Part shown: in pieces, positions 6,594-29,038 of the stretch
Position numbering within the stretch: position 1 is the first letter of the stretch
How the letters are laid out: every line of letters starts with the position of its first letter
Origin: Bacteroidales bacterium UBA3684
Lineage (GTDB): Bacteria; Bacteroidota; Bacteroidia; Bacteroidales; P3
Length of the DNA: 31,877 bases
Assembly: GCA_002372855.1 (NCBI GenBank)
Contig: DFIZ01000022.1
Location: 1-31,877 of the forward strand
Direction: 5' to 3'
Notes under the pieces: generated by a model
What the model saw: the letters and a program-made list of their open reading frames with translations, nothing else
Database searches by the model: none
Told to the model about the DNA's origin: nothing
Made by a program: the position numbers and the translations under genes

Positions 6594-6857
6594 GTAGAGA
6601 CGCGGCATGCCGCGTCTCCCGCCCCCGGAGGGGGCATAAGAACTTAGGCGGGGGCAACGCCCCCGTGGTGCGTGATAGTGTAAAAAAACGCCCTGCAGGG
6701 GCATAAGAGTTGGATTCTTATGCCCCTGCGGGGCGTTGGTTTTTGGGGGACTGCCTTATCGGGGGCGTTGCCCCCGCCTAAGTTCTTCCGCCCCTGCGGG
6801 GCGTCCGTCGTCCGTGGAACGCCTACACCCGGGAGACGCAGCATGCTGCGTCTCTAC
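6594..6857. repeat. 264-bp composite quasi-palindrome between convergent genes
   Basis: The ends are inverted copies: 6594-6621 starts GTAGAGACGCGGCATGCCGC and its near-complement ends at 6857. Each end is itself a palindrome (GAGACGCGGCA/TGCCGCGTCTC and GAGACGCAGCA/TGCTGCGTCTC). Inside, 6638-6665 is perfectly complementary to 6760-6787 (28 bp). Positions 6688-6707 pair with 6717-6736 with one mismatch and a 9-base loop. A GCCCC-nnn-GGGGC module occurs four times. No coding gene is credible here. It could be a MITE-like element or stacked REP modules; no target-site duplication is evident. Confidence 0.75.
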
Positions 6858-6879: not shown

Positions 6880-7344
6880 CTAATTGTAAATCTCCAGGGT
6901 GTAGCCGTCGAAGTGCGTATTGTATTCGTAGAGCGGGCAACCCGAGGCGGAGCCTTCGAGGGGCTGGCCATACTCTGTTTCGTAGAGCGACCCGCAGGCT
7001 CTGCAGCGCAGTACGGCGCCATCCCAGTCAGGGTCGGGTTCCAGACGCACATCGTTGTCGTTGGGACAGGCACACTCGAATGCTACAAAATCGCTGAAGG
7101 TGGTGCGGCGGATGAAGATGCCCTTGTATCCACGGTTGATGGTCACCGTGCCGCCGATGTTGGTGAGGGCATTGAAATCGGGCTGGTAGATGTTGATGAT
7201 GGCTCCGTCGCCGAAGGGCGTGTTGCAAATGTTTTCGCGGGTGCAGGAATTGAAAGTGAGGCACGAAGAGGGGAGAATGAAGAACAGGCTTGCGCGGAAG
7301 ATCCGCGCAAGCCTTCTTTGTCTTGATGGTCCTTCTTTTTTCAT
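6880..7344 (-). CDS. Rieske-fold lipoprotein with four-Cys ligand set
   Basis: A 154-residue lipoprotein with a Cys-rich redox-like domain. The ATG at 7344 overlaps the upstream lipoprotein stop by ATGA, so the two are probably translationally coupled; an in-frame extension upstream would be antisense to that gene. The hydrophobic segment leads to candidate lipobox Cys at 34 (FNSC) or 28 (PSSC). The domain has a C91-x-C93 pair, a 20-residue gap, then C114-xx-C117 followed by GSLYE. This spacing is that of a Rieske [2Fe-2S] site (CxH...CxxH) with both His replaced by Cys. Similar small Bacteroidota lipoproteins are often labelled Rieske-like. Whether it binds a cluster, a single iron or zinc cannot be told. 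The region coding for the signal peptide contains a perfect 11-bp inverted repeat. Confidence 0.8.
   Translation of the reverse strand: MKKEGPSRQRRLARIFRASLFFILPSSCLTFNSCTRENICNTPFGDGAIINIYQPDFNALTNIGGTVTINRGYKGIFIRRTTFSDFVAFECACPNDNDVRLEPDPDWDGAVLRCRACGSLYETEYGQPLEGSASGCPLYEYNTHFDGYTLEIYN
7287..7313. repeat. Perfect 11-bp inverted repeat inside a signal-peptide coding region
   Basis: GGCTTGCGCGG (7287-7297), a 5-base loop, then CCGCGCAAGCC (7303-7313). On the coding strand it encodes the RLARIFRAS segment joining the charged and hydrophobic parts of the lipoprotein signal peptide. It aligns in frame with similar palindromes in lptC and lptE. Confidence 0.85.
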
Positions 7345-8399
7345 TTTCCAGCAGGATAGTCGCCGTAGAGAGTTTTCATTGTCACTTCGGCGACGATGCG
7401 GAGGCTTTCCGCGCTGACGGCCTGAAGGTTGTCGGTGGTGGTGTGCCAGTGCTCGAAGAACGAGGTGTTGCCGCTGTTTTGCACGATGTCCACCATGGGT
7501 ATGCCGCTGAGGCGGTTGACGTAGTAGTGGTCGTCGAGGATGGGGTCGGTGTTGACGTCGACAAATATGTCGCCATAGCCGAGCGCCTTGGCGGCTGTCC
7601 ACAGTTTGTCGACGAGGCCGGGGGCGTAGTTGCGGCTGATTTGCTCACGTGTGAAGCGTGGCTGCTGGGTGCCCACCATGTCGAAGAGGATGCCGTAGAC
7701 GGCTGTGTAGAAGGGCACGTGGCGGTTGCGGACCCAATGCTGCGAGCCCTTGCACCAGGTGTCCTCGTCGTAGACCTCGCTCCATTCCGGTGCGCCTTGG
7801 TCTTCGACGTCGAAGAGGAGGAAGTCCACTCCCACGCCTTCGGGGCGCATCTGGCTCATGACGCGTGCCATCTCCATCAGCACGGCCACCCCCGAGGCGC
7901 CGTCGTTGGCACCGGGTACGGGGCTGCGGTGGAGGTCGTCGCTAGGGTCGTGGTCGGCCCACGAGCGGCTGTCCCAGTGGGCGGCGAGGAGCACTCGCTT
8001 CTCGGCCATGGGGTTGATGGAGGCTACGATGTTCTTGCCGGGAACGGTGCTTTGGTCCCAAAGGGTGGCCTGGAAGTCCTGTACACGCACGGTGTCGCAC
8101 CAGCGTGCCATCTGGTTCTGGAGCCATTGGGCGCACTGCAGCCAGGCTTTGCTGCCGGGAATGCGGTTGCCGAAGGCAAGCTGGGCTTCGACGTATGCGT
8201 AGGCACTGTCGGCCGAGAAAGCGGGGGTCTCCACCTTCGTATAGTCGATGGCCTGCGGTGTGGCGGCACCGCCCTCATCCTGCTTGTGCTTGCAGCCAGA
8301 CAGCACCAGCAGGAGGATCAATACTGAAAACGGAAAGTGGAAAGACCTGATGAAGGTTTTCCCACTTTCCATTTTCCATTTTTCTTTTCCCACTATCAT
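7341..8399 (-). CDS. M28-family lipoprotein, probable glutaminyl cyclase / aminopeptidase
   Basis: A 352-residue lipoprotein with a zinc-dependent M28 fold. The lipobox is LSGC at C36, placing it in the periplasm or on a membrane face. Visible motifs are AAHWDSRSWADHDP (first zinc His and Asp), PGANDGASGVAVL (bridging Asp region) and LLFDVEDQG (acidic ligands). The ANDGASGV and DVED signatures with this length fit Bacteroidota lipoprotein glutaminyl cyclases, which turn N-terminal Gln of exported proteins into pyroglutamate. A plain M28 aminopeptidase is the alternative. Five exported proteins in this window start with Gln after cleavage, which suits the cyclase reading. The start at 8399 is 9 bases after efp; Met10 (8372) is an alternative. 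An inverted repeat spans its signal-peptide coding region. Confidence 0.85.
   Translation of the reverse strand: MIVGKEKWKMESGKTFIRSFHFPFSVLILLLVLSGCKHKQDEGGAATPQAIDYTKVETPAFSADSAYAYVEAQLAFGNRIPGSKAWLQCAQWLQNQMARWCDTVRVQDFQATLWDQSTVPGKNIVASINPMAEKRVLLAAHWDSRSWADHDPSDDLHRSPVPGANDGASGVAVLMEMARVMSQMRPEGVGVDFLLFDVEDQGAPEWSEVYDEDTWCKGSQHWVRNRHVPFYTAVYGILFDMVGTQQPRFTREQISRNYAPGLVDKLWTAAKALGYGDIFVDVNTDPILDDHYYVNRLSGIPMVDIVQNSGNTSFFEHWHTTTDNLQAVSAESLRIVAEVTMKTLYGDYPAGK
8326..8376. repeat. Inverted repeat in the M28 lipoprotein signal-peptide region
   Basis: GAAAACGGAAAGTGG (8326-8340) pairs with CCACTTTCCATTTTC (8362-8376), 14 of 15 positions, and AAA/TTT pairing continues inward. On the coding strand one arm encodes KMESGK (charged) and the other FHFPFSV (hydrophobic). 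Confidence 0.8.
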
Positions 8400-8408
8400 G
8401 TCTCTTCT

Positions 8409-8972
8409 TTATTTCAGACGCTCGGCGTACTCGTTGGTACGGGTGTCGACCTTGATACGCTCGCCTTCCTTGATGAAGAGGGGCACGCGGACCTGCACGC
8501 CGGGTTCGACGGTGGCGTCCTTCATGGCGTTGGTGGCGGTGTTGCCGGCAAAACCGGGTTCGGTGTAGGTGACGACGGTCTCGATGAACGGGGGCAGCTC
8601 GCAGGTCAGCGGGGTCTCGGTGTCGGCGTCGACGGTGATTTCCACGTACTGGCCGTCGCGCAGGAACTGCGGGGCGTTGATAATCTGCTCGGGGATGTAG
8701 ATCTGCTCGTAGGTCTCGGTGTGCATGAAGACGTGCATGTCGCCCTCTTTGTAGAGGTAGGTGTAGGGGCGACGCTCGACGCGGACAATGTCGATCTTGG
8801 CGCCGCTGGGGAAGGTGTTCTCCAGCATGCGGCCGGTCTTCACGTTGCGCATTTTGGTGCGCACGAAGGCGGCTCCCTTGCCGGGTTTCACGTGGAGGAA
8901 TTCAACGATGGTGTAGATGTCGTTGTTGAAATTGATGCAAAGTCCGTTTTTAATGTCGGTCGTTGTTGCCAT
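8409..8972 (-). CDS. efp: Elongation factor P
   Basis: A 187-residue EF-P, which relieves ribosome stalling at polyproline stretches. It has the N-terminal KOW-like domain with loop VKPGKGAAF, where K32 is the tip Lys that is modified in many bacteria. The middle OB domain includes VERRPYTYLYKEG. The C-terminal OB domain includes TYTEPGFAGNTATN, ATVEPG, VRVPLFIKEGE and the terminal IKVDTR. The length matches the family. The gene lies 30 bases after a small membrane protein gene and 9 bases before the M28 lipoprotein gene, so it is co-transcribed with envelope genes. Nothing suggests a defect. Confidence 0.97.
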   Translation of the reverse strand: MATTTDIKNGLCINFNNDIYTIVEFLHVKPGKGAAFVRTKMRNVKTGRMLENTFPSGAKIDIVRVERRPYTYLYKEGDMHVFMHTETYEQIYIPEQIINAPQFLRDGQYVEITVDADTETPLTCELPPFIETVVTYTEPGFAGNTATNAMKDATVEPGVQVRVPLFIKEGERIKVDTRTNEYAERLK

Positions 8973-9305: not shown

Positions 9306-9358
9306 CGAACTTTTTTTTAATTGGAAATATATTTTTTTATTCCCACCTACCTACCATC

Positions 9359-9428
9359 CCCCTATCAAGTCCTTACCAACTCCTTACCAACTCCTACCAT
9401 CGTGGGAGTTGATAGGGAGTTGGTAAGG
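9359..9428. repeat. 11-bp-period hairpin array, GC-rich type
   Basis: Four consecutive 11-base units (CCCCTATCAAG, TCCTTACCAAC, TCCTTACCAAC, TCCTACCATCG) occupy 9359-9402. Inverted units follow at once (9403-9428, ending GGGAGTTGGTAAGG), forming a long imperfect hairpin. The layout matches the array at 22428-22539. It lies between the efp-operon promoter and the end of the long minus-strand cluster. The 9276-9555 intergenic region otherwise holds only that promoter and the hairpin at 9466-9501. Confidence 0.75.
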
Positions 9429-9465
9429 CTGTAATAGGTTGATAGTCAGTAGTAGTACAGTAAGT

Positions 9466-17566: not shown

Positions 17567-18151
17567 TTATTCTTCAAATTCAATGATGCCTCGCTGCCGT
17601 GTGACGCGCAGGTTGGTCATGTTGGCGTCGCTCGTGAACCCGTCGCCATATGTGATGCGGTTCCCGTTCACGGCTCGCACGCTGTGGTTCGAGTAGATAA
17701 GGTCCTCGTCCGACTTCCACACGATGTCTTCCAGATACACCGTGTCGCCGTTGGTGTAGTCGATGACCACCACGCTGTCCTTGGCCGTCAGTATGTTGCG
17801 GTCGTCGTACGAGGTGGCCCTGTCGGCCCGGATGAAGGTCTGCAGCCTGCGGTCCCCGTCATAAAAACGCAACTCTACCCCGTTGGGGTAGATGGTGCGT
17901 GTGTCGGGCGTGCGAAACTGCACTATGCGCGGCGCGTCGAGCTCCAGCTGCAGTTTCCCTTCGTTGCTGCGCCATATGTGTCCGTCGAGTATCTCCTGGT
18001 CGGGACGCTGTTGGCGGTCGAAACGGCTGATGTCCTTCATGTCGTTGCTGCAGGACATTACAGCGGAAAGTGAAAACAGAAAAACGAAAAAGCAGCTTAC
18101 GCGGCCATGCCGCGTAAGCTTGTTTCTCTTTTCCCTTTTTCCCTTTCCCAT
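17567..18151 (-). CDS. lptC: LPS export periplasmic protein LptC (lipoprotein form)
   Basis: A 194-residue LptC, which passes LPS from the LptB2FG transporter to the periplasmic bridge. Bacteroidota forms are lipoproteins; here the lipobox is VMSC at Cys34. The body has the LptC beta-jelly-roll signature: [72 protein letters not shown] and [15 protein letters not shown]. It ends 4 bases before lpxD and starts 4 bases after the TPR gene. The signal-peptide coding region is one long inverted repeat whose core is a perfect 12-bp stem. Confidence 0.93.
18094..18120. repeat. Perfect 12-bp palindrome in the lptC signal-peptide region
   Basis: AGCTTACGCGGC (18094-18105), loop CAT, GCCGCGTAAGCT (18109-18120). 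On the coding strand it encodes KLTRHGRVS. Purine-rich DNA on one side (KGKREKRN) and pyrimidine-rich DNA on the other (FFVFLFSL) extend it imperfectly. The opposite strand reads [15 protein letters not shown], so the motif is nearly symmetric. Confidence 0.9.
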
Positions 18152-18155
18152 CTCC

Positions 18156-19505
18156 TTATCTCGTTCTCACCGTGGTCGATTCGCCAACCCATCCGGGTAC
18201 GGTGAAGCGGTTGCCGTTCTCCAGGCCGGCCATGAAGGCGTCGGTCTGCTTCGGGAAGCGGGCGGTGTAGGCGCTGATCATGCGGTTGCATGCCTCGACG
18301 TTGCCCTCCGAGGAGTCGACGGATTTGGATTTTACCAGCTTGTCCACGGCAGCCCAGTACACACTGTGGCCGTTGATATTGTCCTCTGTGGCGCTCGAGG
18401 CGCTGGCGGCATACATGCTGGCAATCATGCGGTAGGGCTCACCCTTGGTGCGGTCGGTCTCGGCGGCGTTGTTGTAGGCCGTGCGGGCGGCGCTGTAGCT
18501 CCTGGCTCCGTTGTAGGCGTGGCCAAGGTAGAGGTAGGCCTTGTATTTGTCCTTCTGCGTGGTGACACCTTCCACAGCATCCTTCAGGTACTCGATGGCC
18601 TTGCTGTAATCTTTCTTCTGCAGGCACATCTGACCCATGTTCAGGGCAGTGGCGGGAGTGGGTTCCAGGCGGTAGAGGTTCTCGGTGGCCGAGAAGAAGA
18701 GGGCCTGGTCGGTGCAACCCTTCTTCGACATGATGTTGGTGATTTTCTTCAGCAGGTCCACGTTCTCGGGGTCGGCCTCGAACTTCTTGCTGTAAATCTC
18801 CACCAGCTGATCGCAGGTGGCGTAGGGAGAGAAGGCGGCCTCGACACCGGCGATGTAGCCGCGGATGGTGGCAGCCTTGGCGCTGTCGTCGATGTTCTTC
18901 TGCAGCTCGTCCTCCAGCTTCTCGCTGGCAATGTCGTAGTTGTCGACCACCAGCGTGGGCTCGGCCTTGCCGGCACGCACATAGTTGATGGTGGCTTCCA
19001 TGTATTTCACCAGGTAGGCGGCCTCAAGCTCGCCGTCCATTCTCACTGCCTGGTCGTAGAGGGCGTAGTAGCGCTCCAGACCGGCTTCCTCCATCAGCTC
19101 CTCCAGCTCCATGGCTTTCTTGGCGGTCCATTTGGGCGCCTCGCCGTAGTTGGCAATGCGGGTATCGTACATGCGCATCAGCTCTTCGATGAGGGTGTCG
19201 CGCTCGGCCGGGGTCTTGGCTTTGGCAATCATCACTCTCATGATGTTGGTACCGTTGATGTAGAGGTTCTTGCTCTGCTTGGGGCAGTTGGCAACAACCT
19301 GATGCCAGTTGGGGTAGGCTTCCTCAAGCCAGCGGGTGTCCTTGGTGGCTTTGTACTGCTTGATAGCATCCTGATAGAGCGACACAGGTGTCATCATCTC
19401 CTGCTGTACTTCTTCCGAGCAGCCCCAGTTGGGCAGCTGGGCCATCGCTGTGGTTCCCATGGCTGCCATAAAGATTCCCATCGTCAGTGTTTTGATCGTT
19501 TTCAT
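18156..19505 (-). CDS. Periplasmic tetratricopeptide-repeat protein
   Basis: A 449-residue exported helical-repeat protein. The signal peptide ends AMA with mature Gln23. The body is alpha-helical with TPR-like units, clearest at about 290-370 (PATALNMGQMCLQKKDYSKAIEYLKDAVEG, YKAYLYLGHAYNGARSYSAARTAYNNAAE). No enzyme motif is seen. In Bacteroides, homologous genes commonly lie between an outer-membrane porin and lptC, the same order as here, so a scaffold role in envelope biogenesis is plausible but unproven. A 103-base gap precedes it without a recognisable -7 box. Confidence 0.85.
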   Translation of the reverse strand: MKTIKTLTMGIFMAAMGTTAMAQLPNWGCSEEVQQEMMTPVSLYQDAIKQYKATKDTRWLEEAYPNWHQVVANCPKQSKNLYINGTNIMRVMIAKAKTPAERDTLIEELMRMYDTRIANYGEAPKWTAKKAMELEELMEEAGLERYYALYDQAVRMDGELEAAYLVKYMEATINYVRAGKAEPTLVVDNYDIASEKLEDELQKNIDDSAKAATIRGYIAGVEAAFSPYATCDQLVEIYSKKFEADPENVDLLKKITNIMSKKGCTDQALFFSATENLYRLEPTPATALNMGQMCLQKKDYSKAIEYLKDAVEGVTTQKDKYKAYLYLGHAYNGARSYSAARTAYNNAAETDRTKGEPYRMIASMYAASASSATEDNINGHSVYWAAVDKLVKSKSVDSSEGNVEACNRMISAYTARFPKQTDAFMAGLENGNRFTVPGWVGESTTVRTR

Positions 19506-22408: not shown

Positions 22409-22436
22409 GAGGTACATAATTCGGCATTTCTTATAT
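22409..22436 (+). repeat. Dispersed TACCAAATTCGGC-type repeat, copy B
   Basis: GAGGTACATAATTCGGC followed by ATTTCTTATAT. It differs from copy A by two bases over 28. It runs directly into the 11-bp array, with the last nine bases forming the first array unit. Confidence 0.75.
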
Positions 22437-22539
22437 TGTTCTTATATCGTTTTCATATCGTTCTCATATACTTCTCATATACTTCTTATATAGGTGATAT
22501 AAGAAGTATATGAGAAGTATATAGGAACGATATAAGAAG
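22428..22539. repeat. 11-bp-period array forming a long hairpin, AT-rich type
   Basis: Six units in exact 11-base register (TTCTTATATTG, TTCTTATATCG, TTTTCATATCG, TTCTCATATAC twice, TTCTTATATAG) fill 22428-22493. A GTG spacer follows, then about four inverted units (22497-22539). The innermost 21 bases of each arm are perfectly complementary around the loop AGGTG. The period is close to one DNA helical turn. It sits between the C69 peptidase stop and the pth promoter. Nothing else is seen in 22326-22584. Confidence 0.85.
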
Positions 22540-28317: not shown

Positions 28318-28488
28318 ATGGACCTGAAATTCAAAGAAAAGATTGATGCCCTGATTAGCGAGGTGGCCGCCGTGCCCGACCTCATGACCAAGATAGCCGT
28401 GCTGAACTACATCCAGCAGGAGTCCGGGTTCCTCCTTTGGCAACTCGAAGACGAACAACGCATCGATGAAGACTCGCGAGATTATTAA
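28318..28488 (+). CDS. Small 56-residue protein upstream of lptE
   Basis: An open frame of 56 codons from ATG at 28318 to TAA at 28488, beginning MDLKFKEKIDALISEVAAVP. It is predicted mostly helical and acidic towards the end (LEDEQRIDEDSRDY). It starts 17 bases after the arginase-like gene and overlaps lptE by 23 bases. Codon use is like the neighbours. No family is recognised. The tight packing argues it is real; it may also help couple translation into lptE. Confidence 0.6.
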   Translation: MDLKFKEKIDALISEVAAVPDLMTKIAVLNYIQQESGFLLWQLEDEQRIDEDSRDY

Positions 28489-29038
28489 AGCGGAAAGCGG
28501 AAAGTGGAAAGTGGAAAGATGGCTGACGCGGTTGGCTTGCGTGGCCTTGTTTCTCCTTTTTCCTTTCTTATTTCTCATTTCCTGCAGCGGCGGCTACTCC
28601 TTCACCGGCGCCTCCATCCCGCCGGGAGCCAAGACCATCTCCATCGCAACCTTCCCCAACTACGCCGCCACCGTCAACCCCCAGCTCAGCCAGAAGCTCA
28701 CCGACGAGCTGATGCAGATGTTCTCCAGCCAGACGCCCCTCAACGTGATGACCACCGACGACGGTGACCTGCAGCTCGAAGGCGAGATCACCGGCTACGA
28801 CACCCGTGCCGCCGCCCTCTCCAGTGCCGACGAGGTCTCTATGAACCGCCTCACCATCACCATCAAGGTGCGCTTCACCAACACCGTCGACCCCGACGCC
28901 AGCTTCGAACAGTCGTTCTCGCGCTACCGCGACTATGCCGCCTCGCGCGACTTCTCCTCCGTCGAGAGCTCCCTGGTGTCCGAAATCGTTACAGAACTAT
29001 GCGAAGACGTCTTCAACAAGTCGGTGGTAAACTGGTAG
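28466..29038 (+). CDS. lptE: LPS-assembly lipoprotein LptE (Bacteroidota type)
   Basis: A 190-residue lipoprotein that plugs and assists LptD in placing LPS in the outer leaflet. The lipobox is LISC at Cys40, then SGGYSFTGASIPPGAKTISIATFPN. QLSQKLTDELMQMFSSQTPL, GDLQLEGEITGYD, MNRLTITIKVRFTN and the ending EDVFNKSVVNW are characteristic of Bacteroidota LptE. The N-terminus is unusually long (39 residues before the Cys). It is encoded by a 7-bp tandem GGAAAG repeat followed by a decayed palindrome encoding WLTRLACVALF. GTG at 28511 is an alternative start within the repeat. Confidence 0.92.
   Translation: MKTREIIKAESGKWKVERWLTRLACVALFLLFPFLFLISCSGGYSFTGASIPPGAKTISIATFPNYAATVNPQLSQKLTDELMQMFSSQTPLNVMTTDDGDLQLEGEITGYDTRAAALSSADEVSMNRLTITIKVRFTNTVDPDASFEQSFSRYRDYAASRDFSSVESSLVSEIVTELCEDVFNKSVVNW
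28492..28519 (+). repeat. 7-bp tandem repeat in the lptE N-terminal coding region
   Basis: Four units in register: GGAAAGC, GGAAAGT, GGAAAGT, GGAAAGA. The unit length is not a multiple of three, so gain or loss of one copy would shift the lptE frame before the lipobox. The related motif GGAAAGTGG lies in the M28 lipoprotein gene. Confidence 0.75.
28521..28546. repeat. Decayed copy of the signal-peptide palindrome in lptE
   Basis: GGCTGACGCGG keeps the left arm seen in lptC and the Rieske-like gene; the right arm (TTGCGTGGCC) has diverged. The encoded WLTRLACVALF aligns in frame with [11 protein letters not shown] of LptC and RLARIFRASLF of the Rieske-like lipoprotein. Confidence 0.65.

Follow-up and report, generated by a model that had tools for sequence, protein, structure and literature searches.

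The nearest known mechanism to the arrangement reported here is that of the protective hairpins of Escherichia coli, which are encoded in the downstream gene. In programmed operon mRNA decay, as set out in the cited part of the report (Dar and Sorek 2018, PMC5927463), protective hairpins without a U tract follow the upstream gene. The protective structures are often conserved, and 17 of 26 were encoded inside the downstream gene. The present hairpins resemble these in lying after the stop codon and in the downstream gene, and in lacking a U tract (28 of 35 hairpins inside an open reading frame (ORF) had no T run of 4 at the foot). Compared with the features given in that part of the report, they differ in being placed ~40–55 nt past the stop, often in signal peptides, and in their large sequence turnover, and they are known from sequence alone.

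Palindromic repeats inside or beside coding sequences have also been reported. The RU-2/YPAL palindromic mobile repeat makes up part of the predicted signal peptide of YPO1552 (Delihas 2007, PMC2759123; reviewed in PMC2229807). It is one sequence-conserved enterobacterial repeat, for which the cited portion of the first report claims neither a stop-codon rule nor covariation (PMC2759123). The preliminary description of the present locus had stated that no system of this kind was known; given the cited sections on RU-2 in YPO1552 (PMC2759123) and on protective hairpins encoded in downstream genes (PMC5927463), that statement was too strong. REP, Rickettsia palindromic elements, and the GTAG and CGTC families (PMC3733652) are likewise small palindromes, located mostly past coding regions and sometimes in frame. 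These families share sequence according to the cited text, whereas the exact core of the present palindromes does not reach high copy number and the arms vary by place. The IS605 stem loops 3′ of Borrelia lipoprotein genes (Delihas 2009, PMC2775950) are similarly kept by compensatory and G-U changes, but are described in the cited section as downstream of genes and not through the next signal peptide. The coding palindromes of Nematomorpha mitochondria (PMC6649704) are also inverted repeats retained within coding sequence; as far as the cited part goes, they differ in being mitochondrial and up to 284 bp long, with both arms encoding conserved protein regions. The BrickBuilt MITE of Porphyromonas gingivalis (PMC4596501) likewise belongs to Bacteroidales and combines tandem units with inverted-repeat ends, but its unit is 23 nt and the cited passage states that it is always intergenic. 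Among titles and the first lines of abstracts in open PMC, with subscription papers outside the scope, we found no description of hairpins inside Bacteroidales signal peptides.

The window, i.e., the whole stretch of 31,877 nucleotides that was analysed, gave no match to any Rfam family at gathering score. The locus under study consists of the following features.

6880..7344, minus strand: Rieske-like gene, predicted lipoprotein (ORF list; the label is that of the preliminary description)
7243-7344, minus strand: Rieske-like signal peptide with lipobox Cys (read from sequence)
7286..7314, minus strand: palindrome with 13-bp perfect arms and a 3-nt loop in the Rieske-like signal peptide codons (sequence and RNA folding)
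7341..8399, minus strand: M28 peptidase gene (Pfam PF04389, E 1.3e-33)

The palindrome had been reported as an 11-bp perfect inverted repeat at 7287-7313. It exists but is larger, with arms at 7286-7298 and 7302-7314 that are 100% complementary. Its placement at the junction of the n- and h-regions was confirmed in the minus-strand ORF 6880-7344, which encodes the protein MKKEGPSRQRRLARIFRASLFFILPSSCLTFNSC; the ‘Rieske-like’ identity found no support, as this protein matched 0 Pfam families at E 0.001. The Rieske-like ATG overlaps the M28 stop codon TGA (7341-7343) as ATGA, and the hairpin is centred +40.5 nt from that stop. RNA folding of the 110 nt downstream of the M28 stop gave −34.9 kcal/mol (z −4.99, 0 of 200 shuffles as stable), a stable hairpin past the stop and in the next gene, as in the E. 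coli protective structures. The 150-nt stretch around the palindrome gave z −3.34. By eye, the foot of the hairpin showed no T run. Codon resampling with the peptide preserved gave p = 0.02 (100 resamples). This result indicates that the peptide explains part of the palindrome, but probably not all of it.

We consider it probable that the M28 gene upstream has a post-stop RNA hairpin and that the palindrome, written within the following gene, forms it. Many genes in this rumen Bacteroidales genus would carry a hairpin centred ~35–60 nt past the stop codon. If the following gene begins at that stop or directly behind it, the hairpin would occupy approximately its codons 5–25; in an exported protein these codons form the signal peptide. 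The hairpin would thus also spell part of the next export signal because the genes are tightly packed. Signal peptides would tolerate it since their sole requirement is positive charge and then hydrophobicity, which a purine-first palindrome encodes in both orientations. Fast-changing tandem-armed palindromic repeats, presumably mobile, which also occur in intergenic DNA and in proteins, seem to supply part of the raw material. The most likely function would be protection of the upstream mRNA from 3′–5′ decay, which would give unequal upstream and downstream mRNA levels, and the Rieske-like hairpin would act like the hairpin at lptC described below. A fuller version of this reading, which we put forward only tentatively, gives the hairpin a dual role: it would guard the 3′ end of the upstream mRNA and provide codons of the downstream lipoprotein's export signal. 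The palindromic repeats would be freely swapped, given that either orientation reads ‘positive, then hydrophobic’, and the lptC hairpin would persist across several Bacteroidales lineages despite repeated replacement of its sequence and peptide. If true, this would illustrate how RNA control signals are accommodated in packed operons, namely in the stretch of the following protein that is most permissive, and would help to explain the fast change of signal peptides in these bacteria. It would provide a concrete cis-element at lptC (lipopolysaccharide transport) in several Bacteroidales lineages, and N-terminal repeats in such genomes would not necessarily be signs of wrongly called starts or of a novel export system.

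The position of the hairpins was surveyed in sampled stretches of three genomes of one genus (G000, G002, and G008), where 321 hairpins had a score of at least 11; gene starts were the calls of this analysis. Their positions peaked at +20 to +80 nt after stop codons in convergent, distant same-strand, near, and packed gene pairs alike. Within +10 to +100 nt of a stop (n = 183) the median centre was 43.5 nt (interquartile range 36–58). The packed class contained five hairpins at +37 to +52.5 nt within the next gene, including the Rieske-like one (40.5). When upstream ATG, GTG, and TTG starts were allowed, the hairpin was coded by the next ORF at 24 of 404 packed junctions, 13 of 197 ahead of signal-peptide genes and 11 of 207 ahead of others, the Rieske-like gene being among the others. 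Elsewhere in genes such hairpins were rare: 5 of 2570 control windows of 110 nt inside genes contained one. Packed junctions of E. coli K-12 had 0 of 67 (Fisher p 0.035).

Start-region hairpins were found at 13 of 554 operon-internal starts versus 0 of 467 starts without a close same-strand upstream gene (p 3.7e-4), a distribution that links them to the gene upstream and not to export. Six of the 13 were in genes not called as signal-peptide genes, the Rieske-like gene being one. Two loci separated the hairpin from the ORF. At L272 lptC starts +116 nt from the upstream stop, the hairpin stands at +40.5 nt outside the ORF, and the signal peptide is an ordinary short one. The same was seen at L007, where the Rieske-like gene starts at +168 nt and the hairpin is at +56 nt, again outside the ORF and with an ordinary short signal peptide. 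It does not seem to be export that anchors the palindrome, and its cause is better placed in the RNA of the upstream gene. Exceptions to the stop rule were G114 and G127, in which the Rieske-start palindrome lies across the M28 stop rather than ~40 nt beyond it; in these genomes the palindrome CAGCATGAAAAATAGC..GCTATTTTTCATGCTG spans the upstream stop codon and the new start (L362 in G127, L365 in G114). A start-region hairpin, GACCGGCAATTTC..ATTGCCGGTC, was present in one gene, which we take to be KDO-8-P synthase, of both G000 (L036 10464-11213) and G002 (L104 18072-18899).

Further hairpins of the window, and the genes to which they belong, are listed here.

8326..8376, minus strand: tandem-armed palindrome encoding most of the M28 signal peptide (gapped score 14; RNA z −5.64)
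8409..8972, minus strand: gene upstream of M28, presumably elongation factor P (efp), whose stop anchors the M28 hairpin (ORF list)
17567..18151, minus strand: lptC (Pfam PF06835, E 7.8e-6)
18065..18148, minus strand: palindrome encoding the LptC signal peptide, with tandem purine/pyrimidine arms (gapped score 16; RNA z −7.18)
18156..19505, minus strand: gene upstream of lptC, which we assume to be TPR-like, whose stop anchors the lptC hairpin (ORF list)
28466..29038, plus strand: lptE (Pfam PF04390, E 2.6e-16)

The M28 signal peptide palindrome, centred +57.5 nt from the upstream stop, had not been listed with the Rieske-like finding. The LptC palindrome has the core GCTTACGCGG..CCGCGTAAGC and is centred +49 nt from the upstream stop. 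In lptE the purine arm was kept at 28491-28546 and the core had diverged; no significant hairpin was detected there (score 5; z −0.99; 31 of 200 shuffles as stable). The peptides of the Rieske-like, Lpt, and LptE proteins had been aligned as copies of one element. A shared core L-T/A-R ... V/A-S/A is readable and corresponds to a DNA core like GGCTNACGCGG..CNGCGTNAGCC, but the LptE member of the alignment has no significant hairpin. The proposed rule of a purine arm for charged residues and a pyrimidine arm for hydrophobic ones fitted the long LptC and M28 arms better, while the 13-bp Rieske-like stem is mixed. Relatives retrieved with LptE were mostly rumen and herbivore-gut metagenome bins, some of them named Candidatus Colimorpha.

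In related species the structure was kept at lptC. Matches were obtained in 57 of 59 genomes, and the codon-resampling test covered 42 of the 50 fetched loci, the other 8 being without a lipobox match. The signal peptide DNA was palindromic against codon-resampled controls in 26 of these 42 loci at p ≤ 0.01 and in 34 at p ≤ 0.05. In an enlarged set, with 5 of 80 loci left out of the tallies, 57 of 65 rows of the genus reached p ≤ 0.05, some genomes being counted twice. Two other genera gave 4 of 6 and 3 of 4 at p ≤ 0.05; in further genera and families of the order the hairpin was present in 13 of 27 and absent (p > 0.05) in 14 of 27. When positions were measured from the upstream stop, a hairpin with a score of at least 11 was present at 42 of the 72 distinct junctions of lptC.

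The lptC hairpins form groups that are unrelated in sequence and in peptide. Both sides of a pair had changed in 8 of 16 pairs in group A (16 sequences), 9 of 17 in group D (6 sequences), and 6 of 18 in group B (8 sequences). The covariation score was reached by 0 of 500 shuffles in each of the three groups, and pairing was 90–96% compared with at most 64% in slid registers. The number of further pair types was unexceptional against shuffles in D (143/500) and B (460/500). Covariation at lptC is of the RNA type. Sense-strand mismatches in 60 distinct hairpins were G.U in 44 cases and A.C in 11, some of them common to relatives, and such an excess is expected for RNA. In the two other genera the lptC hairpin is retained although its arms have lost the purine-first order (e.g., QTRLLLLVAGVFVF), which indicates that the structure outlives the coding pattern. 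The group A hairpin occurred at 12 places in 12 of 59 genomes, every one at the start of lptC. The hairpin centre was 55.3 ± 10.2 nt from the upstream stop and 38.8 ± 7.9 nt from the lipobox Cys (n = 51); the two distances are similarly tight, so the anchor cannot be chosen from lptC positions alone. At five lptC loci (L216, L217, L222, L223, and L214) the interval from the upstream stop to the hairpin contains no ATG in frame, and an alternative start codon or coupled re-initiation may operate there.

The other orthologous junctions were surveyed with identical windows counted once; no upstream stop was available for 5 Rieske, 6 LptE, and 1 lptC locus. A hairpin was present at 6 of 25 M28–Rieske junctions and at 1 of 61 LptE junctions (67 of 80 LptE loci used, 13 more distant ones left out); it is not conserved at either. 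The efp–M28 junction had one in 13 of 30 cases, and 10 of these 13 were one form spelled by the conserved peptide IAACLLVLAGC. In those M28 orthologues (L235, L236, L238-L240, L242, L244-L246, and L249) the hairpin GCAGCCTGC..GCAGGCTGC lies over the h-region and the lipobox. The M28 gene of the window does not have this hairpin, and its tandem-armed palindrome stands at that place. The Rieske signal peptide of G002 carries a different palindrome, and that of the close relative G082 carries a homologous but diverged tandem-armed palindrome. The remaining Rieske orthologues have mostly short signal peptides without a palindrome. The Rieske-like hairpin is specific to its lineage and may represent an eroded remnant of the core of a tandem-armed repeat such as the one in G082.

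The preliminary description explained the palindrome as a dispersed element repeatedly captured as an export signal, its presence being due to selection on the signal peptide. We regard this as unlikely, although part of it stands, as palindromes do recur in intergenic DNA, proteins, and signal peptides. Ungapped inverted repeats with a score of at least 13 numbered 86 in 646 kb of G000 versus 3 in one Markov shuffle, and 46 in 400 kb of G002 versus 0 in a shuffle; gapped hairpins at this score numbered 107 versus 7 (G000, 646 kb, one Markov shuffle) and 58 versus 2 (G002). Densities of gapped palindromes (score at least 13) per 10 kb were 3.11 in signal peptides, 0.38 in other coding DNA, and 8.42 in intergenic DNA of G000, and 6.32, 0.16, and 6.67, respectively, in G002. 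Signal peptides are therefore enriched ~8-fold and ~40-fold over other coding DNA, in favour of capture, with only five signal peptide hairpins in each genome, and intergenic density is higher still. The signal peptide predictor of this analysis counted the Rieske-like hairpin as gene body. All 9 long palindromes in signal peptides were purine-first, compared with 20 of 85 in intergenic DNA and 9 of 21 in gene bodies. This agrees with the idea that one palindrome can supply a signal peptide in either orientation, but the 9/9 count holds partly by definition, since the predictor requires K/R and then a hydrophobic run.

Capture is also favoured by a strict core palindrome common to the lptC signal peptide (G000 and G082), another signal peptide in G002, and intergenic DNA in G087, and by the different palindromes in the Rieske signal peptides of G002 and G082. 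However, this core was limited to 4 of 101 family genomes, and the exact word GCTTACGCGGC, proposed as the dispersed family, was not enriched (28 matches with at most 1 mismatch versus 69 for the reversed control). An exact high-copy palindrome family is ruled out by these two counts, which also differ from the many copies that define REP, RPE, or MITE repeats; in-frame copies within genes, another property of such repeats, were found. Hairpins also occurred at operon-internal starts of genes not called as signal-peptide genes (6 of 322, including the Rieske-like gene), while 149 signal-peptide genes without a close upstream gene had none. The lptC arms of the two other genera, with the hairpin retained and the purine-first order lost, likewise speak against capture. 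A general palindrome habit of lipoprotein signal peptides is ruled out by the ungapped count (score at least 10), which was 2 of 49 in G000 and 0 of 31 in G002, under a filter that missed the Rieske-like and LptC cases.

That the hairpin is an intrinsic terminator or attenuator serving the upstream gene, with a chance overlap of the next gene, is quite unlikely. The distance from the stop does resemble that of hairpins at convergent gene ends, but a T run of at least 4 stood at the foot of only 7 of 35 in-ORF hairpins compared with 32 of 75 at convergent ends, which makes a terminator less likely, and the Rieske-like foot has none. Chance together with codon bias, by which purine-rich n-regions and pyrimidine-rich h-regions would yield inverted repeats without further cause, is very improbable and for lptC disfavoured: the Rieske-like resampling value is modest and the LptE case L142 (score 14) is explained by its peptide (p 0.32), but the 26 of 42 lptC loci at p ≤ 0.01 rule out codon bias alone there, and 13 operon-internal start hairpins with a score of at least 11 were observed against ~0.6 expected from codon resampling.

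For the post-stop RNA hairpin, the possible source repeats were also inspected. Many palindromes consist of two facing arrays of short units (GGAAAGT, GGTTTAA, GGAGATAAG, AGAAGTTAA, and others) flanking a spacer, which in some tandem-armed palindromes contains a GCTGACGC-like core. The word GGCTGACGC occurred 17 times in intergenic samples versus 3 for its reversal. The majority of palindromes are intergenic; others encode signal peptides or are read in frame within proteins. Tandem-armed examples of the last kind were seen at L037 15578-15698, L046 3412-3496, L090 8073-8157, and L114 17782-17861, giving inserts such as VESGKWKVES...STFHSPLST.

Three matches of the Y1_Tnp transposase type were detected, two of them over the cut-off (G000: C81, C41, and C73; L197-L199). 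A 52-bp palindrome was observed in L197 and an 86-bp palindrome in L199. The three loci (3.2–3.3 kb) carried other palindromes, with single GCTGACGC words in two of the three and no GTAGAGACGC, and a transposase-flanked repeat is a weakened reading.

Several other palindromes were noted. A long one with units of the TTCTTATAT / CTTCTCATATA type occupies 22428-22539 of the window and is near-identical at several places, namely L035 10087, L039 10412, L040 22, L078 236, L079 9806, and L088 16022; five palindromes of this type lie within ~330 bases of a contig or stretch end. The REP-like palindrome GAGACGC[A/G]GCATGC[T/C]GCGTCTC, at 6597-6618 and 6833-6854 of the window and at L033 8919, L040 9118, L047 58, L048 19759, and L094 55, often has GTAG feet and occurs as monomers and facing pairs. 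The intergenic gap at 9347-9452 of the window contains a pyrimidine-first palindrome (CCTACCAACTCC.. / ..GGAGTTGGTAGG), and similar units were found at L036 12280, L046 11733, L096 9439, and L101 18429.
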